From a virus, in IMG/VR virus record IMGVR_UViG_3300025102_000015, positions 1-64,000 of that record: a DNA stretch of 64,000 bases. One strand, written 5' to 3'. Numbering within the stretch: the first letter of the stretch is position 1; each line of letters starts with the position of its first letter. This document shows, one piece after another, positions 6,205 to 61,192 of the stretch. The notes under the pieces are model-generated. The model was not told where the DNA came from and searched no databases. It saw only the letters and a list, made by a program, of their open reading frames with translations. Position numbers and translations under genes: made by a program.

Positions 6205-6693
6205 GTGTTAGAACAGATTATATTACAAAATAGCTCAGAGAAACAAGCTAAGCTTTTGGGTCCCGCGCAGCGCGCACATAAAAAGCCAGATATCGGCGTG
6301 GAGATTCAAAACAAATCAGCTTACTATGTTATCAGAGACTGCGCAATGATTACGCAAAAGTATCTTGTTCATCACATTTGGAGTGCATACCCAGATCCTT
6401 TTGAAGCTCTAAAAGGAAAGTTTACAAAAGATAATATAACTGACTTCTTAAAGAGAGCTGAAAAAGATAATGCTGTAAAGCAACTCAAGCATACCATTAT
6501 CGGTGATATCAGAGCAAAGTTTGATACAACCGTAGCAACGTCAACTAACTTCGACTATAGTATGGAAGAAGAAGATATCTACAAGTACTATAGCGATGCA
6601 GAAGAGACAGAAGATGAGACCGTTGTAGAGCAAGAAATGACTGAGGAGGAGATGCTCTTAAAGTTTTTTGACGTTGACCCTAATAAGCTTTAA
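6205..6693 (+). CDS. Late protein with acidic C-terminus, unknown function
   Basis: GTG 6205 is chosen because TAAATA sits 5 nt upstream and the longer frame would read through the divergent promoter of the next gene. The 162-residue product has a basic-helical first half (AQRAHKKPDIGVEI, YYVIRDCAMITQKYLVHHIW) and a very acidic C-terminus ending in EEEMLLKFFDVDPNKL. An acidic tail with a hydrophobic LLKFF patch resembles sliding-clamp-binding ends of T4 proteins, but this is speculation. The gene ends 4 nt into the convergent dehydratase gene. Confidence 0.7.
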   Translation: MLEQIILQNSSEKQAKLLGPAQRAHKKPDIGVEIQNKSAYYVIRDCAMITQKYLVHHIWSAYPDPFEALKGKFTKDNITDFLKRAEKDNAVKQLKHTIIGDIRAKFDTTVATSTNFDYSMEEEDIYKYYSDAEETEDETVVEQEMTEEEMLLKFFDVDPNKL

Positions 6694-7664
6694 GCTTTGT
6701 ATTGTTCAACATAGTACTTTATTGTTTCCTCAATAGAGAAGCTCTTCTGATCTTTTACAGCTTGTAAGTCGTGTTTAGTAGAGAGCTCATATTTAAAATC
6801 ATGCCCTGCTCTGTCTTTTACAAACTCAATATATTCTTTTTTCTCTCTCTTATATTCTGGATAAAAGAGCTCAAGCATCTGAATGATAATATTAATTAGC
6901 TTTACATTAGTATATGTACCGCTTCCAGGAATATTATATAGCTGTTCTTCTCCGGTGAGTAGTACTTCGATGATAGCCTTAGCATGATCTTCAGCATGAA
7001 TCCATTCTCTAATATTTTCTCCTGTACCATATACAGGAATTTTATCACCTTTGACAATTGATCTAATTACAGTAGGAATTAACTTCTCATCACCTTGTCG
7101 TGGTCCGTAGTTGTTACAGCATCTAGTGACAGAGGCATCGATACCAAATGTCTCAATATAAGATTGTACAAGAAGATCAGAACCAGCTTTAGTTGCTGAG
7201 TAAGGCGATCTAGGAGCAAGAGGACTTTCTTCAGTAAACGGAGGGTCGTCCCTTTCGAGATGACCATACACTTCATCAGTTGATACATGAACCATTCTAG
7301 CTTTATGTTTTCTTACTAACTCTAATACGTTAGCTGTACCTTTTAAATTAGAGTCAACAAACGATAATGGATTATCAATAGAACGATCAACATGAGATTC
7401 AGCAGCTAGGTGAATAACATAATCAACATCCGCGGATATAAAATCTAGAGGATCAGACATATGTAATCTCCACGCATCACCATTAGCAATATCCATAAAA
7501 TGATTTTCAACGCGTTTATCTTCTACAATATTTTCTTCTGAAGAGCCGATGCCCATCTTATCGATATTATATATAAAGAGATCTTTATCTTTACTTTTGA
7601 GAAGCTCCTTAATTACGTATGACCCAATGAAGCCACACCCTCCGGTTACAACATATGTACTCAT
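6690..7664 (-). CDS. rfbB: dTDP-glucose 4,6-dehydratase-like SDR enzyme
   Basis: 324 residues, an extended short-chain dehydrogenase. It has GGCGFIGSYV (residues 8-17, NAD-binding GxxGxxG), HLAAESHVDRSIDNP, VSTDEVYGHL and the catalytic YSATK, followed by NNYGPRQGDEKLIP. These are close to the RmlB/RfbB signature (TDEVYG, Tyr-x-x-x-Lys, NNYGPRQ). RmlB converts dTDP-glucose to dTDP-4-keto-6-deoxyglucose; related UDP-sugar dehydratases share the motifs, so the exact nucleotide sugar is not certain. It overlaps the upstream transferase gene by 4 nt and ends the operon. Confidence 0.85.
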   Translation of the reverse strand: MSTYVVTGGCGFIGSYVIKELLKSKDKDLFIYNIDKMGIGSSEENIVEDKRVENHFMDIANGDAWRLHMSDPLDFISADVDYVIHLAAESHVDRSIDNPLSFVDSNLKGTANVLELVRKHKARMVHVSTDEVYGHLERDDPPFTEESPLAPRSPYSATKAGSDLLVQSYIETFGIDASVTRCCNNYGPRQGDEKLIPTVIRSIVKGDKIPVYGTGENIREWIHAEDHAKAIIEVLLTGEEQLYNIPGSGTYTNVKLINIIIQMLELFYPEYKREKKEYIEFVKDRAGHDFKYELSTKHDLQAVKDQKSFSIEETIKYYVEQYKA

Positions 7665-8101
7665 TTCTTAAAAACGTCTGGATTCTGCTTGATAGTTTGT
7701 TTAGTGATAAGATCTTTTAACCGTGTAGTAGACCAGCCATGAGAGCGGGTAGTGTAGATTACCTTAGGAGGTAAATCATCTCCTGTAAAGGATTCTTTTT
7801 CGATATAATCTTCTCCTAAAATACGAATATCAGGCTTCCAAAATTTAATTAAATTATAAAGCTCTTCTTCTGTTTGATACGTATAGACATCGTCAATATA
7901 TCTAATAGCCATTAACGCTTCATATCTATTGTATAGAGATATTACAGGTTTATATTTACTCTTTCTATGTAAAGAAGGATCCTTTTGGAGAAAGACAATA
8001 AATTTATCACAATGTCTCTTAGCTTCTCTAAAACATCTAATGTAACCTGGATGAAGCAGATCAAAGTTACCTGCAGTGAATCCTAAAATTTCTTTACTCA
8101 T
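7661..8101 (-). CDS. Cytidylyltransferase-like nucleotidyltransferase
   Basis: 146 residues of the HxGH nucleotidyltransferase superfamily. FTAGNFDLLHPGYIRCFREA (about residues 8-27) carries the HPGY variant of the HxGH motif, and WSTTRLKDLI near residue 125 matches the second signature (ISTTxL). Length and motifs are close to glycerol-3-phosphate cytidylyltransferase (TagD) and the RfaE C-terminal domain, which activate a phospho-sugar or polyol with CTP or ATP. It overlaps both neighbours by 4 nt, so it belongs to the same sugar pathway. The substrate is not determined. Confidence 0.8.
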   Translation of the reverse strand: MSKEILGFTAGNFDLLHPGYIRCFREAKRHCDKFIVFLQKDPSLHRKSKYKPVISLYNRYEALMAIRYIDDVYTYQTEEELYNLIKFWKPDIRILGEDYIEKESFTGDDLPPKVIYTTRSHGWSTTRLKDLITKQTIKQNPDVFKK

Positions 8102-8970
8102 ACCGTTATTATATTATTCAGCGCGCTCTCAAGTGCAACTTTTTCATCCCATATCTCGAATCCGTATTCGTTTTCTAACTTATTAGTTGACATCACGCAG
8201 TTAGATCTATTGGCTGTTGTTTCAAGATCTTCAAAATTAACCCACTCCCAGTTAGGATTAGTAACATCAAAGTCATCCATTAACTTTGTTACCTTCTTAG
8301 TAGAGAGAGGCTCTGGGTTAACAAAATTTAAGATATCTTTTTCTTTAGCTTCGTATCCTCTACTAACAAAATGCTCAATAAAATCGAGAAGCTGTGGAAT
8401 ATACGTCTTAGAGTTGACTTTATCAATTAAATTATCGTACTTATATATCTTAGTAATGAAAGATCTCTCATGAAGTATATCACAGAATGGCATTCTAACT
8501 CTCAGTATTAATCCCCAATCGCATCCTAATTCAAATGCATGCTTACTCTTTGAGTATGTGGAAGAGTCCTCATCAAACAAACCAAAATTAGGTTCATCAT
8601 CTTCTTCCCAAGGCTTATCATAACCTGTATAAATGCACCCTGATGAAATATGAATATAATTAATGTTCTTTGTCTTGCATAGATTACTTACCCTCAACGG
8701 TCCAAATGTATTCAGCTCAAAGCAAAGCTCTTTTTTAAGCTCACCTTCATCAACATTAGGTCTTCCAGTAAACCCTGAGCAGTTAATAACATAATCAGGC
8801 TTCTCTTTATCTAGATATATTTCAAGACATTTAATGTCGTTATAGTTTAACAGCTTTCTCTTTTCGATTTTTACATCGTAGCTCTTTTTTTCTGGTCCAG
8901 GAAAGAGCAATCTATCATATAGATTCTTTCCTACGTATCCGTTTCCTAATATTACAATTTTTTTACTCAT
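8098..8970 (-). CDS. NAD-dependent sugar-nucleotide reductase/epimerase, RmlD-like
   Basis: 290 residues, SDR fold. GNGYVGKNLYDRL (residues 8-20) is the nucleotide-binding loop, DYVINCSGFTGRPNVDEGE corresponds to the NCAAxTxVDxAE motif of dTDP-4-dehydrorhamnose reductases, HISSGCIYTGY follows, and YSKSK is the Tyr-x-x-x-Lys catalytic pair. The closest functional type is RmlD or a related reductase, acting after the dehydratase encoded two genes downstream. Operon neighbours are GMP reductase upstream (2-nt gap) and the transferase downstream (overlap). Confidence 0.8.
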   Translation of the reverse strand: MSKKIVILGNGYVGKNLYDRLLFPGPEKKSYDVKIEKRKLLNYNDIKCLEIYLDKEKPDYVINCSGFTGRPNVDEGELKKELCFELNTFGPLRVSNLCKTKNINYIHISSGCIYTGYDKPWEEDDEPNFGLFDEDSSTYSKSKHAFELGCDWGLILRVRMPFCDILHERSFITKIYKYDNLIDKVNSKTYIPQLLDFIEHFVSRGYEAKEKDILNFVNPEPLSTKKVTKLMDDFDVTNPNWEWVNFEDLETTANRSNCVMSTNKLENEYGFEIWDEKVALESALNNIITV

Positions 8971-8972
8971 TT

Positions 8973-10013
8973 TTAAATCTCTAATGTGTTTGGCTCATAT
9001 ATTTTACTATGCGTCTTCGTACATCTAACAAACGTAGCGCACTTACTTAAATGCTTTAGCTTAGCAGCTCCTACATATGTACATGTACTTCTAATACCTC
9101 CTAAAATATCTTGAACAATATAACGCATAGACCCTTTGTACGGTAGAACTACTCTACGTCCTTCTGAAGTTCTATAGTCCTTTAAGCCTCCGTTATGCTT
9201 TTCGTTAGCCTTCTTACTGCTCATTCCATAGAACTCAACATACTCTTTATCATCGATAGTAATCTTTTCACCGCCTCCTTCTGTTGAACCAGCTAACATC
9301 GATCCAAGCATTACAAAATCAGCACCAGCACCAAATGCTTTAGCTACATCACCAGGCGTTGTACATCCCCCATCAGCAATAATATGGCCATCTAATCCAT
9401 GAGCAGCATCAGCACATTCAGCAATACAACTAAACTGAGGATAACCAACTCCTGTCTTAAGTCGAGTAGTACAAACACTTCCTGATCCAATACCAACTTT
9501 AATAATATCTGCTCCAGCTAGAAGTAGCTCTTCAACCATTTCACCTGTTACTACATTACCCGCTATAATTGTCCTCTGTGGAAACGTTCTTCTTACTACC
9601 TTTACAAAATCAACAAGTGCTTGTGTATAGCCATTTGCTACATCAATACAAATATTACGAACTGGAGCCTGCTTATTAATACGAGATAGTCTCTCGTAAT
9701 CGTTCTCGTTTCTACCTACAGTTACAGCTACATGTTTACCATGATTGTCTTTAAGCTCTTCAATAAGCTCCTTTTCATCAATATCCTTTTTATAACAAGT
9801 AAAGAGATCTAATTCACTTAAGGTTCTTCCTACCTCTAACGTGCCGACACCGTCCATGTTAGCAGCCATAATTGGTATACCGTGATATGAACCACCGTAT
9901 TTAAATCTAAACGTTCTAGTTAAATCAACCTCTTTTCGAGATGTTAATGTCGATCTTTTAGGTCGAATAAGAACATCATCAAAATCGTATTTTAGCTCTG
10001 TCTCTATACGCAT
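8973..10013 (-). CDS. guaC: GMP reductase
   Basis: 346 residues, the same length as bacterial GuaC. It has the TIM-barrel markers FDDVLIRPKRSTLTSR, PIMAANMDGVGT, the catalytic loop GIGSGSVCTTRLKTGVGYPQ (near residue 180; active-site Cys followed by TTR), HIIADGGCTTPGDVAKAFGA and FYGMSSKKA. The CTTR loop with KTGVGYPQ and lack of CBS domains favour GMP reductase over IMP dehydrogenase. It converts GMP to IMP with NADPH, so it can rebalance purine nucleotides during infection. First gene of the sugar operon; a -10 TATAAT lies 9 nt upstream. Confidence 0.9.
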   Translation of the reverse strand: MRIETELKYDFDDVLIRPKRSTLTSRKEVDLTRTFRFKYGGSYHGIPIMAANMDGVGTLEVGRTLSELDLFTCYKKDIDEKELIEELKDNHGKHVAVTVGRNENDYERLSRINKQAPVRNICIDVANGYTQALVDFVKVVRRTFPQRTIIAGNVVTGEMVEELLLAGADIIKVGIGSGSVCTTRLKTGVGYPQFSCIAECADAAHGLDGHIIADGGCTTPGDVAKAFGAGADFVMLGSMLAGSTEGGGEKITIDDKEYVEFYGMSSKKANEKHNGGLKDYRTSEGRRVVLPYKGSMRYIVQDILGGIRSTCTYVGAAKLKHLSKCATFVRCTKTHSKIYEPNTLEI

Positions 10014-10277: not shown

Positions 10278-10904
10278 ATGTCATTTTCAACTGAAGTAAG
10301 CATAATTTTAGAAAAAGTTGGTTCATATAAACCTATCAATTTACCATACTCACTAAGTGCATTAGAGCCTGTAGTAAACAGACAGACAACTGATTTTCAC
10401 TACAACGACCATTATAAAGGATATGTTAAAAAATTAAATGCAGCTATGGTTAATAGAAAGAAGCCACCTCTTGTAGAACTAGTTAAAGATATTAAGAGCT
10501 ATAACGACCATATAAAAGACAACGCTGGAGGAGCATATAACCATCAGTTGTTTTTTAATATGATGAAACCTGGTGGTAGTGACTTTACAGGTGAGATTAA
10601 AGATAGAATATTAAAACGGTTTGGTACTTTCGGAAAGTTTAAAAAAGAATTTATTGAAAATGCTAAGGGTCAGTTTGGATCCGGATGGGGTTGGTTAGTA
10701 GAAAAGAATGGTAGATTGGATTTAGTAAGGACACCAAATCAAGATAACCCGTTAATGTTTGACTTAGGTAAGCCAGTTTTAGGAGTAGATGTATGGGAGC
10801 ATAGCTACTACCTTATGTATGGACCAAAAAGACAAGAATGGTTGCAGAACTTCTTTGATATTGTTAACTGGGACTTTTGCTCTGCTTTACTTCATACTAG
10901 CTAA
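10278..10904 (+). CDS. sodA: Mn-type superoxide dismutase
   Basis: 208 residues with the full Fe/Mn-SOD pattern: ALEPVVNRQT, metal ligands H41 (FHYNDHY), H89 (GGAYNHQLFF), D171 and H175 (LGVDVWEHSYYLMYG), the conserved H45, and GSGWGWLV. Gly at 85 and Gln at 155 (TPNQD) are the placement of the outer-sphere Gln in Mn-type enzymes; Fe enzymes carry Gln at the 85 position. It dismutates superoxide to oxygen and peroxide. An auxiliary metabolic gene in a phage; its late-type promoter, 6 nt from ATG, suggests production with virions. It overlaps the convergent nuclease by 18 nt. No signal peptide. Confidence 0.93.
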   Translation: MSFSTEVSIILEKVGSYKPINLPYSLSALEPVVNRQTTDFHYNDHYKGYVKKLNAAMVNRKKPPLVELVKDIKSYNDHIKDNAGGAYNHQLFFNMMKPGGSDFTGEIKDRILKRFGTFGKFKKEFIENAKGQFGSGWGWLVEKNGRLDLVRTPNQDNPLMFDLGKPVLGVDVWEHSYYLMYGPKRQEWLQNFFDIVNWDFCSALLHTS

Positions 10905-31670: not shown

Positions 31671-32996
31671 ATGGCAATATGTAATAAAAGTGTAGAAACG
31701 TTAAGAGCTTTAGAATTAACTAAAGATCAGTTTGTATCTGTCATAGAGACAGATTGTAAGGATCAAAGTAAAGGTCCAATATTAGGTTATACATTTACAA
31801 ATAAAGACAAAGAGCTTTGTGAGTCATTTAAGAAAGTATATCAGCTAGGATTTAACCAACTACAGATTTTTGTTGACGATCTCATAAAAGGTAACCCTGA
31901 AATAGATGAACAAGCTGCTCTATATTATATAAGACAACTATACAATGGTCCGTTTACTAACCAAGTAGCTATATATGCTCAAAATCCTTATAGAGGTAGA
32001 GGGAGAGAACAAAACTGTTTTTTCCCATCACCTGATATATTAGGTTGTCTTGCAAATACAGCTCAGCAAAATGCCGGTACAGCAATTTATTATGGCGAAT
32101 CAAACGACATATCCTTAAATCTAGTTAAAAAGACTCCAGCATTTATTCGCAGAAATCTTAGTAACTGTCAAAGAACTTGCGCGCAAGTCATTCAATATAA
32201 TACTGAGAGTACTGTTTATAGTGATAACACACTTCCATATATTGATAAACGCTCTGTTGAACGTGTTAACACAGAATATTTAGGTAGGTATACAGCCTCT
32301 ACAATTGCTGTAGGTAACCTCATGCTGAAGGATATTAATTTTAGTAATATTTTACGCGGAATTGCTAATACCATTATTGGTATAATTGAAGATTACCTAG
32401 GAGTAGATGCATTTAGATTATTTGAGTATAAGAGAAATATAAACTTCTTTGACCCAGAACAAAATATATCAAAAACAGAAAACGGTCAAGTATGTAAATC
32501 GTTTTTAATTTTGAAGAAAGCTTTTGATGAGCAAGGAAATGAGTATATTGATGAAGAGTGTGTTGAAGTGTGTTGCAGTTGTTGCTGTGGACCATCAATA
32601 CCTAATTTCGGACTTACACTTTCCACTAGTAGTGGTTCTTTTGATTTATACACTGTCGCCGGTCAAGGTGGTGCTAGAAGTGGGGGTGGTAGACCTCGGG
32701 AAAATCCTAATATAGGCGGGACTCAATTAACACCTGAACAAACAGCTATCGATAGACTCGGTACTTTTCCAGGTGTGTTAAATGTTACAACCTTTACAAG
32801 CCCACAAAGCGCTTCAAATAAGACACTTGAATTGACTAACGGTGCTTTGTCTGGTTCACACTCCCACCCAACAAGTACAGGTGAGACGGTATGGATGCCA
32901 TTCCCGACAATGAAAGAGTTTGAAAATTACCTAGCTCAAACTAAAGAAAAGGATATTTGTGTTAGTGAGGATAGTTGCGATAATCTTAAGTTTTAA
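31671..32996 (+). CDS. Hub-associated protein with a seven-Cys cluster, unknown
   Basis: 441 residues. The first 110 residues are helical; the middle is beta-rich (FNQLQIFVDDLIKGNP, YIRQLYNGPFTNQVAIYAQ). Near residue 300 lies CVEVCCSCCCGPS, six or seven cysteines in 13 residues, which suggests a disulphide or metal site. A GGARSGGGRPRENP loop and a His-rich stretch (GSHSHPTSTG) follow. It could be a spike-tip or PAAR-like point protein, but no PAAR pattern is clear. It directly follows the gp27-like gene and is convergent with the small-terminase candidate. Confidence 0.5.
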   Translation: MAICNKSVETLRALELTKDQFVSVIETDCKDQSKGPILGYTFTNKDKELCESFKKVYQLGFNQLQIFVDDLIKGNPEIDEQAALYYIRQLYNGPFTNQVAIYAQNPYRGRGREQNCFFPSPDILGCLANTAQQNAGTAIYYGESNDISLNLVKKTPAFIRRNLSNCQRTCAQVIQYNTESTVYSDNTLPYIDKRSVERVNTEYLGRYTASTIAVGNLMLKDINFSNILRGIANTIIGIIEDYLGVDAFRLFEYKRNINFFDPEQNISKTENGQVCKSFLILKKAFDEQGNEYIDEECVEVCCSCCCGPSIPNFGLTLSTSSGSFDLYTVAGQGGARSGGGRPRENPNIGGTQLTPEQTAIDRLGTFPGVLNVTTFTSPQSASNKTLELTNGALSGSHSHPTSTGETVWMPFPTMKEFENYLAQTKEKDICVSEDSCDNLKF

Positions 32997-55896: not shown

Positions 55897-56823
55897 ATGG
55901 CAGCATTAGCAGGATTTCCAACAGATATATCATTACCCGCGGAGGCAAGATATTATACCTTCGTCGAAGTTGGTAAATCTTTTAATTCAAATTATGATAT
56001 TACGTGGTCTTTTCAATATAAGCTACCGAGTACTAGTTTTGGTACAACAGCTAAATCTCATAATTATGAATTAGGTTTTTCAACGTTTTTAACTAATTTA
56101 CCTAAACCTCTATCTTGTCTACCTGGACAATATATTGGTGATCAAGACCCAGAATTTGTATTATCAGCAAATGCACTGCTGACGGAAGGATATACCGCCG
56201 CAGGTGTTTTATCCTCTTCTGAACCTTTAAAAACAGAAGGCGCTTCTACAGTTTTACTCCAAGGGGCTGTACTTAGTGGTATGTTAGTTAAAGTAGCGTT
56301 TGATTCTACTGGTAAATACGCGTTAACAGGTAGAGATGATCGACCCGGGGTAAAGCCTCACCAAGTATTAAGAGAATCAATTATAACACGAGACTTTTTA
56401 CATAATGTAGTTGTTAATAACCACCTTTCTTCCATTTCTACTACATTTAGTACTATATCTACAGATACATATAGAACTTTAAGATTTAGGTATGTTGATC
56501 TTGGACGAACCCTGTATGTTGATTCACGAGAGAGTGATACTACAACATATACTTTACTAACAGCTATTAACCTCGGTACAAGATATAGTACTCTTTCTAA
56601 TATAGAAAACATTTATTGCGGGTTTGCCTTCTCTACTCCAATTTCAGCGAATTATGCAGCAACTGCTGCTGCTTATCAATTAAGTGCAAAAGACTTTTTC
56701 TTAAGAAACTTTCATGTTGAAGGGTATGAAGGAAGTGAGGTACTTACTGAAACTATACGTACACCTCGTTTAAGTTCAGTGCCTAGTACTCCATTTACAA
56801 CTGTTACTAACATTACTGCATAA
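55897..56823 (+). CDS. Lectin-like (concanavalin-type) tail protein
   Basis: 308 residues. A beta-sandwich pattern resembling concanavalin/LamG lectins: ITWSFQYKLPSTSFGTTA, GVLSSSEPLKTEGASTVLLQ, GMLVKVAFDSTGKYAL, and a C-terminal YRTLRFRYVDLGRTLYVDSR and AKDFFLRNFHVEGYEGSEV. These are features of glycan-binding domains in tail fibres, recognised by pattern only. Its ATG lies in a fibre cluster; the 1176-residue protein begins at the last base of this gene. Confidence 0.6.
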   Translation: MAALAGFPTDISLPAEARYYTFVEVGKSFNSNYDITWSFQYKLPSTSFGTTAKSHNYELGFSTFLTNLPKPLSCLPGQYIGDQDPEFVLSANALLTEGYTAAGVLSSSEPLKTEGASTVLLQGAVLSGMLVKVAFDSTGKYALTGRDDRPGVKPHQVLRESIITRDFLHNVVVNNHLSSISTTFSTISTDTYRTLRFRYVDLGRTLYVDSRESDTTTYTLLTAINLGTRYSTLSNIENIYCGFAFSTPISANYAATAAAYQLSAKDFFLRNFHVEGYEGSEVLTETIRTPRLSSVPSTPFTTVTNITA

Positions 56824-59800
56824 TGGAAACGCCAGCACCAGATTTTTCTAATACACCACCACCTGATCCATATGGAGTACCATCTGGAACACCGGCGCCG
56901 GCTGCTGTACATTTAGGAAGCCCAGATGTAGAGATACAGGATATTTTTGTAACTGTTATATCTTACCCACAACTCGGTGCAGGTGGTGTTGAGGGTTCAT
57001 TTGATAACACTAGAGGTAGTGTTAATGTTGATTACGTTTCTTTAAGTAGGGGGTTTGATGGTGAAGTAGAATATTTTGTTGAAGATTTTAACAATAAGGA
57101 AGAACTTGAGGATGGTGTTTCAGCAGTATCACCTGGTACTGCGCAAATAACTATAAATGCTGCTAACTTAACTTTAGGTGCTGATGAAGTCTCTAGAGAC
57201 GGCAGCATGGATGTTACTATATCTCTTCAGCAAATTGTAGATGGTAGACCATATGTTAAATCTCAAACTTTAAACATACCTAACCCTAATTACGATCCTT
57301 CAACACCTGGTGTTACTCCACCACCGGAACGAGAGAGTGAGGGGGTAAATGTAAGGGAAGTAGAGATTATTACGGATGTTTTGGAATCAGAACCATCACG
57401 TCCTACTATTGTTGAAGACACGGGCGTTACACAACCGCCTGATGAAGCTACACCTCCTCCTACTGTTACAGATGCTGACCCCACACCTGAATTAACTTAT
57501 ACAGATGACAGCGGGTTAAGTGATCAGACTGAAGATTTTGAATCAGCTCCGGAGACGGAAACTGTTACGATTAGTAAGAGTGATATTGTTGATACAATAC
57601 GTGATCCGTTAGCAGCAGCAGCTAAGTTAGCTGAAGAATCAGTTACTGCTGCTGAAAATACAATTGGAAATGGTCGTCCAGGAGGTCGTGGTTACGCGCC
57701 CGGTACACTTGGCTTATCATTAAGAGTACAAAATAGAAGGCCTAATGAATTTCCGCAAAGTTTTGTAACTCGAGTTGCAAATCTAAATGACATGGCTGAA
57801 AGCGCCCGAGACTCAGCGAACTTAGCAAATGGAAAGGTTGCTATGGCTTTGATGAGTGTTAACCAATGGTTAAATACAGCTAATAATTTTGATGTATTAT
57901 CTAATACATCGATAACAGACGTTTATAATAATATTGACAGTGCTGCAATAGCTATAAACGCAGCAGCTGGTGATGCAGAGGAAACATATCGAATTGGCCA
58001 AGCTGGGAAGCAGCATGCTGCTTGGCAAATTACATCTAGAACAAGTGCTAGTAAAACTACAGCTCTTAACCTTGCGGGAGCTTTTATTAGCATACTTGCA
58101 AAAATAGAATCTCTTAAAGAAGCAGTGGATGCAGCGCAGCTAGCTGCTGATAGGGCTTCAGCAGATGCTGCTGCACGAATTGCAGCAGAAAGGCTTGAAA
58201 GACTTAATGCAATAAAAGACCGGGCGATAAGTTCATTAGGCGAGGATGTTATACCTTATTATAGAAAGCAAGAGTATATTGATCAAATTAATTCGTTAGG
58301 TACAACAACAGTATTAATAAATCAGTTTTTATTTAATGCAGCTCAAGCTCGACAACAAGCTATTCAGCAAGTTAGTGATGATAAAGTAAAGGAAGCAGAA
58401 GCTCGTGCTGAAGCGAAAAGACAAGAAGAAGAGGATCGAACAGCGCAGGCTGAACTAGAATATGAAGCTCAGAGACAACAAGGTATAGATCGAGCGGCTA
58501 GACTTGAAGAAATTGCTGCTAAACGCTTCGAGGCTCGTGAACGAAGCCTAAACAGTCGATTAGAGTTATTAACCTGGACAGAAATAACTGAACTGGCTGA
58601 GGAAATATACGCAAAGTACGTAGAAGTCCGAGATAGTAATCTGCCGGCGGATGCTAAGCTTATACAGATGCGTTTTCTAGACGATGATCTCGGTATTATT
58701 CAAAAGTTTTTAGATGATAATCCAGAGTTAGTATTTGAAGACCCAACGACCATAGAGTCGCAGCTAGCTGCGCGAGAGCTATCACAAACAGCTAAGAATA
58801 TAAATAAGGTTCTTTTAGATGCAATGCCTATTAACTTTGGTACTGGGCTATCAAAAGTAGATTTTTCCGGAGTTAATGAGGCTGGTGCAGAAAACTGGTC
58901 TCCACAAAATCAAAATGATAGACCACCTCCATGGAGAAAGGCAGCTACATTAATAACCCCGCAGCATGTCGTCCTATCAAAACATTGGCCTGTTTTATAT
59001 GGTCCTAATGATCCATTTGGCGGTGAAGTAGTTTTTGTAGATAAAAATGGAAATAGAATTACTAGAAGGATAGTTTTAACGCAAAATCTAGATCGGGAAG
59101 TCGGAGGTAATAGTAAGTATGATGTAACTGTTGGTTTACTCAATGAACCGGTTGATAATGTAACAATTTACTCACTACCTCAACCTAAGAGTTTCACTGA
59201 ATATTCAGAAATTCTAAAAGGTAGTCATTTTGTACGCACGGATCAAGAAAGAAAAGCGCTTATTGTAAAATATGGAGGGGGATCTAATAATGGTGTTAAT
59301 ATTACATTTCCACCACACACTAATGTTGACGAGGAATATCGAGAGTCTGATAATTACATCAATGAACCATTAGAAAGAGGCGATAGTAGTTCCCCTACTT
59401 TTATATATACAAATAATACACCGATTCTAATTGAAACTCATTTTACTACTAGCGGTGGTCCTTTCTACGGTACACTTGCGATACAGGAGCTTATAAACAA
59501 AGCAATAACTAAACTAGCAGGTGAAACGATGGGTGTGTATGGTGGTAATTATACACCTAACACAGTTGATATTGATGAAGAACTTTTAAAAGGTATTTCA
59601 TCAAGTGATGATGATAGTTATGGTGTTGTACGTACAACACCACCGCCGGATGAAACCACTCCTCCACCACCTCCAGTAACCCAACCTCCGTGTCCTGAAG
59701 GTAAGGAAAGAGTTAACGGTGAATGTGTAGATGTTTGTCCTGACGGTTGGAGGCGTAATGAACAGGGTATATGCTATGATCCGTATCCTGAGCCGGTTGA

Positions 59801-60353
59801 TGAATCGGATGGTTCATTAAACGGTAGCCCGATCATAAGAACACCAGATTTACCCGGATTAATATTTTCTGATCCAACCGACGGTAGTAGTAGTGATTTT
59901 AGGATATATGAAGATCCTACTACTGAGCCACCGTATAGAACTACACCACCGTATACTACGCCACCTTATACGACTACACCGACGTATACCACACCGACGT
60001 ATACCACACCGGTATATACTACCCCACCGCCGCCATGTACAACTATTCCACCACATATTGTACCACCGGGAGAGAGCTTTCCTCCAGATCCTAGAACCCC
60101 AATAATTACTCTACCTCCTGAACCACCAGAGCCGCCGGAGCTACCGGAAACACCTGAGACTCAAGAGGTGCCGATATTTTTATATCCGGCTCCTATTTTA
60201 CCGTTACAAACACCGTTCATAATGGACGAGGTTACAACTACGACTACTACAACTACTACAACTACTACTACGACAACGACAGTTCCTCCTGTATTAACGG
60301 TGACTACAACTATTTGTCCGGAGGATGAAGATTGCAATAACCTACAGTTTTAG
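56823..60353 (+). CDS. Modular tail protein with trypsin-like domain and Thr/Pro-rich end
   Basis: 1176 residues in blocks. Residues 1-250: Pro/Glu/Thr-rich linkers with a small beta domain. 260-640: coiled coil (AEARAEAKRQEEEDRTAQAE is typical). 690-895: trypsin-like domain with H721 in VVLSKHWP, D767 in KYDVTVGLL and S855 in RGDSSSPTF, spacing 46 and 88 as in chymotrypsin-fold peptidases. 957-985: EGF-like Cys block (CPEGKERVNGEC). 1033-1073: mucin-like TTPPYTT repeats. 1138-1153: sixteen Thr in mixed ACN codons. C-terminal CPEDEDC. The next gene is a GT27-like glycosyltransferase. Likely an extracellular fibre or appendage that may cut or be cut. Confidence 0.75.
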   Translation: METPAPDFSNTPPPDPYGVPSGTPAPAAVHLGSPDVEIQDIFVTVISYPQLGAGGVEGSFDNTRGSVNVDYVSLSRGFDGEVEYFVEDFNNKEELEDGVSAVSPGTAQITINAANLTLGADEVSRDGSMDVTISLQQIVDGRPYVKSQTLNIPNPNYDPSTPGVTPPPERESEGVNVREVEIITDVLESEPSRPTIVEDTGVTQPPDEATPPPTVTDADPTPELTYTDDSGLSDQTEDFESAPETETVTISKSDIVDTIRDPLAAAAKLAEESVTAAENTIGNGRPGGRGYAPGTLGLSLRVQNRRPNEFPQSFVTRVANLNDMAESARDSANLANGKVAMALMSVNQWLNTANNFDVLSNTSITDVYNNIDSAAIAINAAAGDAEETYRIGQAGKQHAAWQITSRTSASKTTALNLAGAFISILAKIESLKEAVDAAQLAADRASADAAARIAAERLERLNAIKDRAISSLGEDVIPYYRKQEYIDQINSLGTTTVLINQFLFNAAQARQQAIQQVSDDKVKEAEARAEAKRQEEEDRTAQAELEYEAQRQQGIDRAARLEEIAAKRFEARERSLNSRLELLTWTEITELAEEIYAKYVEVRDSNLPADAKLIQMRFLDDDLGIIQKFLDDNPELVFEDPTTIESQLAARELSQTAKNINKVLLDAMPINFGTGLSKVDFSGVNEAGAENWSPQNQNDRPPPWRKAATLITPQHVVLSKHWPVLYGPNDPFGGEVVFVDKNGNRITRRIVLTQNLDREVGGNSKYDVTVGLLNEPVDNVTIYSLPQPKSFTEYSEILKGSHFVRTDQERKALIVKYGGGSNNGVNITFPPHTNVDEEYRESDNYINEPLERGDSSSPTFIYTNNTPILIETHFTTSGGPFYGTLAIQELINKAITKLAGETMGVYGGNYTPNTVDIDEELLKGISSSDDDSYGVVRTTPPPDETTPPPPPVTQPPCPEGKERVNGECVDVCPDGWRRNEQGICYDPYPEPVDESDGSLNGSPIIRTPDLPGLIFSDPTDGSSSDFRIYEDPTTEPPYRTTPPYTTPPYTTTPTYTTPTYTTPVYTTPPPPCTTIPPHIVPPGESFPPDPRTPIITLPPEPPEPPELPETPETQEVPIFLYPAPILPLQTPFIMDEVTTTTTTTTTTTTTTTTVPPVLTVTTTICPEDEDCNNLQF

Positions 60354-60364
60354 TAATTATTAAT

Positions 60365-61192
60365 GTGGGAAAGCTAACTATCGGAACTTGCGTTTATGAT
60401 GACTATGAAGGTCTCTATTTTACTATTCAATCCTTAAGATTACATCATAAAGAGGTATTAGATAGGCTAGAATTTGTTATCATTAATAACAACCCAAAAT
60501 CAGCACAAGGAAGAGAGATCCGTAAGTTTGTCGACTGGCTTAAAGAGCCTGTAACATATGTTGAGTTTGATGGTTTCTCAGCAACCTCACTAAGAGATAA
60601 AATATTTGGTTTAGCTAACACTGAATACGTATTAGTATTAGATTGTCATGTATTATTAGATCCTGGTAGCTTAAAGAAGCTTTTAGATTTTTATGATGCA
60701 GGTAAAGATCATCAAAACTTATTACAAGGGCCGTTAATATATGATGATATGAAGAATGTAAGCACCCATTTTAATCTCGATAAGTGGGGTAGTGATATGT
60801 GGGGCGTTTGGGATACAGATAAACGAGGTAAAGATCCTAATAATAAACCATTTGAAATACCAGCACAAGGTTTAGGTTTATTTACATGTAGAAAAGATAG
60901 CTGGTTAGGCTTTAATAAAAAGTTTAGAGGATTTGGTGGTGAAGAGGGCTATATTCATGAAAAATATAGATTAGCTGGGCGAAAGGCTGTTTGTTTACCG
61001 TTTCTTCGATGGTTACATCGCTTCGGTAGACCTGCTGGTGTTCCTTATCGCCCAACTAAAGAGGATAGATTCCGTAATTATATGATTGGATTCCAAGAAA
61101 TTGGAAAAGATACTAATGAAATAATCGAAAGATTTAAAGGTAAAGTATCAACAGAATATATCCAAGCCGTTAAAGAAGAATTAGGTTTATAA
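60365..61192 (+). CDS. Glycosyltransferase with polypeptide GalNAc-transferase-like motifs
   Basis: 275 residues, GT-A fold. GTG 60365 follows TAATTA by 5 nt. Motifs: IGTCVYDDYEGLYFTIQSL (donor-binding start), D93-C-H95 (VLVLDCHVLLDPGSL), where GT27 enzymes have Asp-x-His and most GT2 enzymes Asp-x-Asp, GGEE (191-194), and HRFGRPAGVPY with H218, matching the third metal ligand and HxF/PY pattern of GT27. It is soluble and lacks a lectin domain. GT27 enzymes attach GalNAc to Ser/Thr of mucin-like chains; the adjacent protein has such chains. The sugar here is not proven. Confidence 0.7.
   Translation: MGKLTIGTCVYDDYEGLYFTIQSLRLHHKEVLDRLEFVIINNNPKSAQGREIRKFVDWLKEPVTYVEFDGFSATSLRDKIFGLANTEYVLVLDCHVLLDPGSLKKLLDFYDAGKDHQNLLQGPLIYDDMKNVSTHFNLDKWGSDMWGVWDTDKRGKDPNNKPFEIPAQGLGLFTCRKDSWLGFNKKFRGFGGEEGYIHEKYRLAGRKAVCLPFLRWLHRFGRPAGVPYRPTKEDRFRNYMIGFQEIGKDTNEIIERFKGKVSTEYIQAVKEELGL

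Follow-up and report, generated by a model that had tools for sequence, protein, structure and literature searches.

In a marine virus of bacteria, we identified a glycosyltransferase (GT) that likely modifies the mucin-like protein encoded by the gene preceding its own. The window, i.e. the whole stretch of DNA analyzed here, comprises 64,000 nucleotides (positions 1 to 64,000 of IMG/VR record IMGVR_UViG_3300025102_000015, whose full length is 85,634 bases). It encodes a 275-residue GT-A glycosyltransferase on the same strand as, and directly behind, a 1176-residue protein that ends in Thr/Pro blocks. We propose, with a probability of about 0.72, that the 275-residue enzyme O-glycosylates the mucin-like domain of this putative acceptor. 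N-acetylgalactosamine (GalNAc) is a tentative candidate for the transferred sugar, at somewhat below even odds.

The 275-residue enzyme matches Pfam PF00535 (Glycos_transf_2) with an E-value of 3e-9 and a score of 37.4 bits (gathering cut-off, 23.3). A first-pass annotation of the window, made from the sequence alone, had described an Asp-x-His motif (D93, H95), a GGEE motif (G191-G192-E193-E194), an HRF motif starting at H218 and a VPY motif. The first three are present as described, and D93, H95, G191, E193, E194, H218 and F220 are invariant among 32 aligned relatives. In the VPY motif, Y228 is conserved in at least 90% of them, but V226 and P227 are neither invariant nor nearly invariant. 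D93, H95, E193, E194 and H218 are also retained in at least 98% of 81 sequences. The polypeptide GalNAc-transferases of family GT27 are marked by D-x-H and GGE(N/E) motifs followed by a His. The phage enzyme contains all three elements in that order, and its D93, H95 and H218 may build a GT27-like metal site. Furthermore, the distance from E193 to H218 is 25 residues, as is that from E334 to H359 in GalNAc-T2.

By itself, this motif trio does not separate GT27 from GT2 as had been claimed, since sequence searches reach the broad GT2 family alone. The profile search proposed for the gene returned GT2 in Pfam, but no GT27 at the sequence level. Searches of PHROGs and NCBIfam and single-sequence searches of the PDB gave nothing useful, NCBIfam returning no match. 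Likewise, tblastn with the window enzyme found no match at E 0.001 among 50,697 GenBank phage records, and the enzyme may therefore have escaped work on isolates; a relative from locus L071 gave a 22% match in a tblastn search against phages.

An AlphaFold2 model of the enzyme, built with an alignment of 32 sequences, reached a mean predicted local distance difference test score (pLDDT) of 93.7 and a predicted template modeling score (pTM) of 0.91. All 50 PDB matches listed by Foldseek for this model are polypeptide GalNAc-transferases. With VIA-align, GT27 enzymes hold the first 29 of the 50 entries listed, with Z scores from 23.6 to 19.7, the best being 6nqt_F (Z 23.6, 252 residues at 2.8 Å); the chondroitin polymerase K4CP (Z 18.8) and GlfT2 (Z 18.1) come next. 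The overlay on a GalNAc-transferase suggested in the first-pass annotation thus placed the predicted fold closest to the GT27 polypeptide GalNAc-transferases. These are the nearest solved structures, GalNAc-T2 aligning over about 250 residues at about 2.8 Å. K4CP and other GT2 enzymes resemble the phage enzyme through its membership of Pfam GT2 and through the Z score of K4CP; however, that score lies below every GT27 entry listed, and the genes scanned before the phage enzyme are tail or unassigned genes, not polysaccharide genes. The closest viral model in BFVD, A0A6J7WYC1 of an uncultured Caudovirales phage (template modeling score 0.88 on the query, 30% identity), is annotated as no more than a GTA-type domain protein.

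The phage enzyme differs from the eukaryotic GT27 enzymes in several respects. It is the 275-residue product of a phage gene, would act in the cytoplasm, shares about 15% identity with them without a sequence-level match, and has no ricin-type lectin domain, its alignment being limited to residues 135-412 of GalNAc-T2. Such a C-terminal lectin domain is usual, though not universal, in GT27. Because sequence similarity and a lectin domain were both looked for and neither was found, the enzyme should not be filed as GT27. Judging from the model, it is likeliest a GT27-like protein that acts like a GT27 enzyme, yet it is no proven GT27.

Like the acceptors of GT27 enzymes, the proposed acceptor is rich in Thr and Pro. 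Thr accounts for 28% and Pro for 24% of residues 1020-1176, bearing out the Thr/Pro blocks that had been noticed at the C-terminus. The run of sixteen Thr at residues 1138-1153, where the sugar may be attached, is encoded by mixed ACA, ACT and ACG codons as described; nowhere else does the 85,634-base record have six Thr codons in succession. Codon order within the run varies among close relatives, and one of the ten proteins shown (L064) alone has pure ACT. Since the codons are mixed and their order is reshuffled between relatives, the run appears to be kept at the protein level, in agreement with the first-pass annotation, and DNA slippage was rejected as its origin in the window. Slippage could be the origin of the pure ACT run of L064. 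The TTPPYTT repeats reported further upstream correspond to a real repeat block, but that exact sequence occurs only once (residue 1040), two other copies being TTPTYTT and TTPVYTT.

To determine how often such a pair recurs, we relied on scans of IMG/VR in which 262 relatives of the enzyme were confirmed, and 322 when an alignment was used as the query; the best 80 loci from each scan were analyzed. The best 80 of the 262 loci and the window were clustered at 80% identity into 32 GT lineages (81 loci). In seven loci (L037, L038, L040-L043 and L045), the GT frame was missing at first and was then placed by extending the match to the stop. With a Thr-dense open reading frame (ORF) defined as one having at least 12 Thr in 30 residues, 24 of the 32 lineages contain such an ORF within the fetched locus, and in 21 it lies directly upstream of the GT on the same strand. 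When one representative per lineage was considered, 23 of 58 adjacent upstream frames were Thr-dense vs 8 of 1137 frames elsewhere (farther upstream, 6/148; downstream, 0/344; other strand, 2/645). Furthermore, in 26 virus records amounting to 2.66 Mb, 225 of 296 overlapping matches to six Thr codons fall in the 2 kb that precede the GT on the same strand, stretches that represent 2% of the sequence. Inside the fetched loci lie 293 of the 296 matches. Nearly all records (24 of 26) contain a match and 21 contain one within the 2 kb; these counts are not independent because many of the 26 records are close relatives. Judging from its position, the upstream Thr-dense partner may be a structural protein.

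The upstream Thr-rich proteins also share a C-terminal tag, as most terminate in C-x(2-9)-C-[NK]-x-L-x-[FYW] followed by the stop codon. We counted this strict tag on the upstream neighbor, defined as the frame ending between 350 bases before and 150 bases after the GT open-frame start, and found it in 50 of 73 loci that are non-redundant by GT frame and include contig-end loci. Up to five of the 73 were found via poly-Thr; three of these (L231, L233 and L298) are tabulated, one of which is tagged. A wider pattern alone fits six more loci, L022, L023, L024, L033, L078 and L077 (single Cys). Among 2848 ORFs of at least 60 residues in the same loci, 66 carry the strict tag, and these are mostly the upstream GT neighbors. 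The residue following the last Cys in 58 tagged neighbors is N in 46, K in 11 and L in one. When 32 of the longer tagged proteins were compared by their N-terminal parts, they formed six groups that are unrelated at E 1e-5, the largest comprising 21 proteins; nonetheless, all six have Thr/Pro C-termini and the tag in common. At several loci, two or three Thr-rich proteins stand in tandem, each with its own tag.

Relatives of the enzyme are also found in bacteria. A scan of 84,980 species genomes revealed 65 loci (39-54% identity), in which the GT domain is mostly part of a larger protein (62 loci). According to iterative profiles built within these same 65 loci, a PqqD-like (RiPP-recognition, RRE) domain is present in 40, an HprK-like kinase in 39, and an NTP_transf_5 protein and a GT25-like domain in 28 each. 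A family of precursor-like proteins was matched by its profile at 26 of the 65 loci and by a strict leader pattern at 16 of 62, with the L101 match looking spurious. Genes of this family sometimes occur two or three in tandem (e.g. L113:3639-4905, L112:4162-4980 and L085:6951-7881). The proteins of L113 and L103 match no NCBIfam model above the cut-off, and Pfam gave no match for those of L113, L103 and L115. Thr/Pro or Thr/Ser tracts are found at the end of many family members, and the tails of some are longer and not dense in Thr. The 37 proteins of the family have a common leader, RR...W-x-x-P...PAHA, with W-x-x-[PLIV] in all; because the proteins are homologous, the motif counts as one observation, not 37. 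This leader also looks like a Tat signal peptide that is cleaved at AHA, and the NCBIfam Tat model matches the L103 protein under the cut-off only. Given this resemblance, export is an equal reading beside recognition by an RRE domain, and the two are compatible. Recognition sequences of RRE domains have the form W/Y/L-x-x-P/L/I according to one report (PMC12710340). This bacterial setting, in which an RRE and precursor-like proteins accompany many of the relatives, favors a ribosomal polypeptide as the acceptor.

In a quick tree of 32 phage and 62 bacterial rows, from which the partial or broken L141, L144 and L146 were omitted and in which three long-branch rows were kept, the 32 phage sequences form one group (Shimodaira-Hasegawa-like approximate likelihood ratio test support, 96). 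The row nearest to this group comes from L108, a locus at a contig end in which no PqqD-like domain was detected, followed by L083, L090, L088, L092 and L143 (support 88); a fused PqqD-like domain is present in L083, L088 and L090. No RRE is fused to the phage enzyme, all 275 residues of which belong to the GT domain. We put forward, at a little less than an even chance, that a single enzyme family spanning bacteria and phages constitutes a prokaryotic counterpart of mucin-type O-glycosylation. The bacterial acceptors would be small, export-signal-like, Thr-rich proteins whose W-x-x-P leader is read by a PqqD-like RRE. The single phage GT clade, without RRE, would act on mucin-like stalks, the C-terminal tag replacing the recognition or docking signal.

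Several observations weigh against glycosylation of the neighboring protein by a GT27-like enzyme. The lowest GT27 Z score (19.7) is less than one unit above K4CP, whereas the best is nearly five above, and a profile of the 32 relatives retrieved three PDB chains at E up to 1, none of which is a GT27 enzyme. The co-occurrence proposed as a check recurs across many lineages but is not universal. The fetched stretch holds no Thr-dense ORF in the L026 group (six loci), L029 and the L034 group (four loci), which make up 3 of 32 lineages and 11 of 81 loci, although D93, H95, E193, E194 and H218 are retained in at least 98% of the 81 sequences. In L029 and L034, the GT lies directly behind a 46%-identical homologue of the 308-residue protein of the window, as if the mucin gene had been lost. 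In two other lineages (L058, L060 and L076), the GT is found in a replication module, with matches to DNA polymerase B and RecA domains in L058, for which domains were scanned, and genes of the same lengths in L060 and L076; its target may be different there. More generally, GTs in loci with no partner or in replication modules may act on other Ser/Thr-rich fibers or on other targets. A six-Thr run is absent from 11 and present in 4 of 15 records in which the strict tag or an evident Thr partner is missing, all but one of which are under 45 kb, and the 80-kb record of L027 has none. L056 and L080 lie too close to a contig end for a partner to be judged, and the tagged partner of L057, with 10 Thr in 30 residues, is just below the threshold.

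Thr runs also occur apart from the enzyme. Runs of 12 or more Thr codons are common in viral contigs; among 120 viral loci that contain 12 consecutive Thr codons (L184-L303), the GT is present in the fetched stretch of 5 and missing from that of 115, and the notion that poly-Thr in viruses implies the enzyme was therefore rejected. In bacteria, runs of eight Thr are absent from 19 of the 34 genomes searched (covering 34 of the 65 loci), and in 9 of the 15 genomes that have them, none lies inside the GT locus (L086, L097, L100 with 93 elsewhere, L107, L112, L126, L128, L133 and L143). All matches lie in the GT locus for L085, L091, L096 and L113, and part of them for L115 (2 of 4) and L134 (7 of 61). 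Given this mixed result, we rejected a clean poly-Thr statistic for bacteria. Finally, a similar tag, without a Thr block, ends a 441-residue protein encoded among the tail genes, so the tag was rejected as a mark of the GT partner alone. Of 17 loci found for this protein, 15 C-termini were read; nine have a clear tag, with D or N following the last Cys, and in six relatives (L314-L319, CDDKDTCDDALDF) it is off by a residue. The tag may therefore not be an enzyme docking signal alone, and attachment to a common virion site appears at least as likely as docking.

Should the 275-residue enzyme act on its neighbor, a cytoplasmic, lectin-less, GT27-like protein would add a sugar, with GalNAc as the first guess, to Thr residues of the mucin-like C-terminus while the 1176-residue protein is being made or assembled into the virion. 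This would give rise to a stiff stalk or fringe with dense O-glycosylation, presumably on the virion, and the tag could serve either to dock the enzyme or to attach the protein to the virion. Further transferases of some relatives could then lengthen the glycan. In relatives, ten genes lying behind the GT were scanned, and transferase matches exceeded the Pfam cut-offs in four of them, namely GT6 in L015 (E 3e-22) and L016 (E 6e-22), GT2 in L014, and several matches in a 923-residue protein of L024 (6830-9601) that joins GT2-like, capsular-synthesis-like and methyltransferase-like regions. Two are just below the cut-off (polysialyltransferase-like in L022, GT2 in L021) and the remaining four have no match of this type. 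These extra transferases could match the expected picture of glycan elongation. The window contains no further transferase gene behind the GT.

The identity of the sugar is the point on which another reading comes closest. The tail or fiber protein could be modified from a donor other than uridine diphosphate (UDP)-GalNAc, such as a 6-deoxysugar made by the phage sugar-nucleotide genes, a serious possibility that we place only slightly behind GalNAc itself. Proteins resembling a 4,6-dehydratase, a nucleotidyltransferase and RmlD are encoded in the window and possibly supply the donor; since the window has its own sugar-nucleotide genes, the donor need not be UDP-GalNAc. Moreover, K4CP, GlfT2 and RmlT, which use other donors, come next in the fold list, and a fold cannot reveal donor specificity. 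Nevertheless, the 29 nearest entries listed are GalNAc-transferases, with a best Z score of 23.6 vs 18.8 for the first other family. The sugar-nucleotide genes adjoin a guanosine monophosphate (GMP) reductase gene on the same strand (window 6690-10013).

Other readings move the target away from the neighboring protein. Glycosylation of a host surface glycan, leading to serotype conversion or phage exclusion, with the tail-gene position due to chance or late expression, would be in line with the GT8 and GT1 genes that adjoin the GT in L071 and with the role that many phage GT2 enzymes are presumed to play. It is unlikely given that the GT repeatedly lies right behind Thr-rich proteins with a common tag and that many bacterial relatives have an RRE and precursor context. 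About equally improbable is that the Thr/Pro blocks act as flexible linkers free of any modification, with the enzyme having its target elsewhere. The 115 of 120 viral poly-Thr loci without the enzyme and the lack of a Thr block in some GT lineages point that way; conversely, Thr runs are much denser near the enzyme than in the rest of the same records, which speaks against this reading. Glycosylation of hypermodified phage DNA, suggested by the DNA polymerase B and RecA genes near the GT of L058 and the genes of equal length in L060 and L076, is the least probable of all and very improbable, as the GT is preceded by a Thr-dense ORF in 21 of the 32 lineages and its nearest folds are polypeptide transferases.

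Modification of the mucin-like neighbor has partial parallels in known systems. Freeman et al. are said to have described in 2023 the glycosylation of mycobacteriophage virion proteins, on capsid and tail-tube subunits, unlike the mucin-like Thr/Pro domain, C-terminal tag and GT27-like enzyme found here. Mycobacteriophage virion proteins carry glycans, and a structural protein is glycosylated at its C-terminus according to part of one report (PMC12619734), an arrangement that we propose here as well. RRE-glycosyltransferase fusions were flagged by RRE-Finder (PMC7470986, in part), and PF00535 is named in the corresponding part of PMC12710340; the bacterial relatives of the phage enzyme are likewise often fused to, or located near, a PqqD-like domain. 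In contrast, the phage enzyme lacks an RRE, and neither Thr-rich precursors nor a GT27-like fold are mentioned in those parts of PMC7470986 and PMC12710340. No description of a phage pair of mucin-like protein and GT27-like GT was found in the open-licence literature, as judged by titles and the start of abstracts. The aspects that look new are an acceptor of the mucin type that bears a conserved tag, a fold like that of GT27, and a connection to bacterial systems associated with RREs.

These observations suggest that mucin-style protein glycosylation may exist in phages and bacteria too. If so, phages would make mucin-like O-glycosylated appendages by means of their own GT27-like enzyme, which would alter how one views the virion surface of aquatic phages, their adhesion to glycans and their ways of evading defenses. 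The 275-residue protein would be a lectin-less candidate polypeptide O-glycosyltransferase suited to bacterial expression, and the bacterial family would allow RRE-guided glycosylation of Thr-rich proteins to be tested.

Features of the window discussed in the text, with coordinates numbered from its first base.
Feature	Coordinates	Strand	Remarks
GT27-like GT-A glycosyltransferase, 275 residues, GTG start	60365..61192	+	Pfam match, AlphaFold2 fold, invariant motif residues
1176-residue ORF, mucin-like C-terminus, proposed acceptor	56823..60353	+	like gene directly upstream of the GT in most lineages
16-Thr run, residues 1138-1153	60234..60281	+	mixed ACA/ACT/ACG codons
TTPxYTT-type Thr/Pro repeats, residues about 1033-1073	59919..60041	+	
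C-terminal tag CPEDEDCNNLQF of the 1176-residue protein	60315..60350	+	case of C-x(2-9)-C-[NK]-x-L-x-[FYW]
Trypsin-like (chymotrypsin-fold) region inside the mucin-like protein	58740..59642	+	conserved H, D and GDSS positions
308-residue ORF	55897..56823	+	one-base overlap with the 1176-residue ORF
441-residue protein, tail-gene block	31671..32996	+	like tag CVSEDSCDNLKF, without Thr block
Sugar-nucleotide genes: nucleoside diphosphate-sugar 4,6-dehydratase-like, nucleotidyltransferase-like, RmlD-like reductase	6690..8970	-	

The record has matches to terminase, tail-sheath and baseplate-wedge proteins and therefore belongs to a contractile-tailed phage; we assume that such gene sets are of the T4 type. 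Among the genes scanned before the 1176-residue ORF, four encode Collar/Mtd_N or Gp10_C proteins. These are followed on the same strand by the 308-, 1176- and 275-residue ORFs, and then by ORFs on the opposite strand. The stop codon of the 1176-residue ORF and the GT are separated by 11 bases (60354-60364), not the twelve given in the first-pass annotation, whose label of tail protein for the 1176-residue product we infer from gene position alone. Nothing useful was obtained by megablast of the 30-54 kb region of the window, by tblastn of its 462-residue tail protein, or by searches with the 1176-residue protein (PHROGs, NCBIfam and tblastn against phages). The T4 late promoter motif TATAAATA has 5 matches vs 13.5 expected and was not used.

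The trypsin-like region of the 1176-residue protein has invariant H82, D128, G214, D215, S216 and S217 in an alignment of seven sequences. Its AlphaFold2 model has a pLDDT of 62 and a pTM of 0.67, and all 50 Foldseek matches listed are, by title, chymotrypsin-fold chains (best Z 12.6). This region might cleave the 1176-residue protein itself or a host surface protein. Elsewhere, the window encodes a superoxide dismutase of the Fe/Mn type (10278-10904) and a protein with a CAP (cysteine-rich secretory protein) domain (929-2131).

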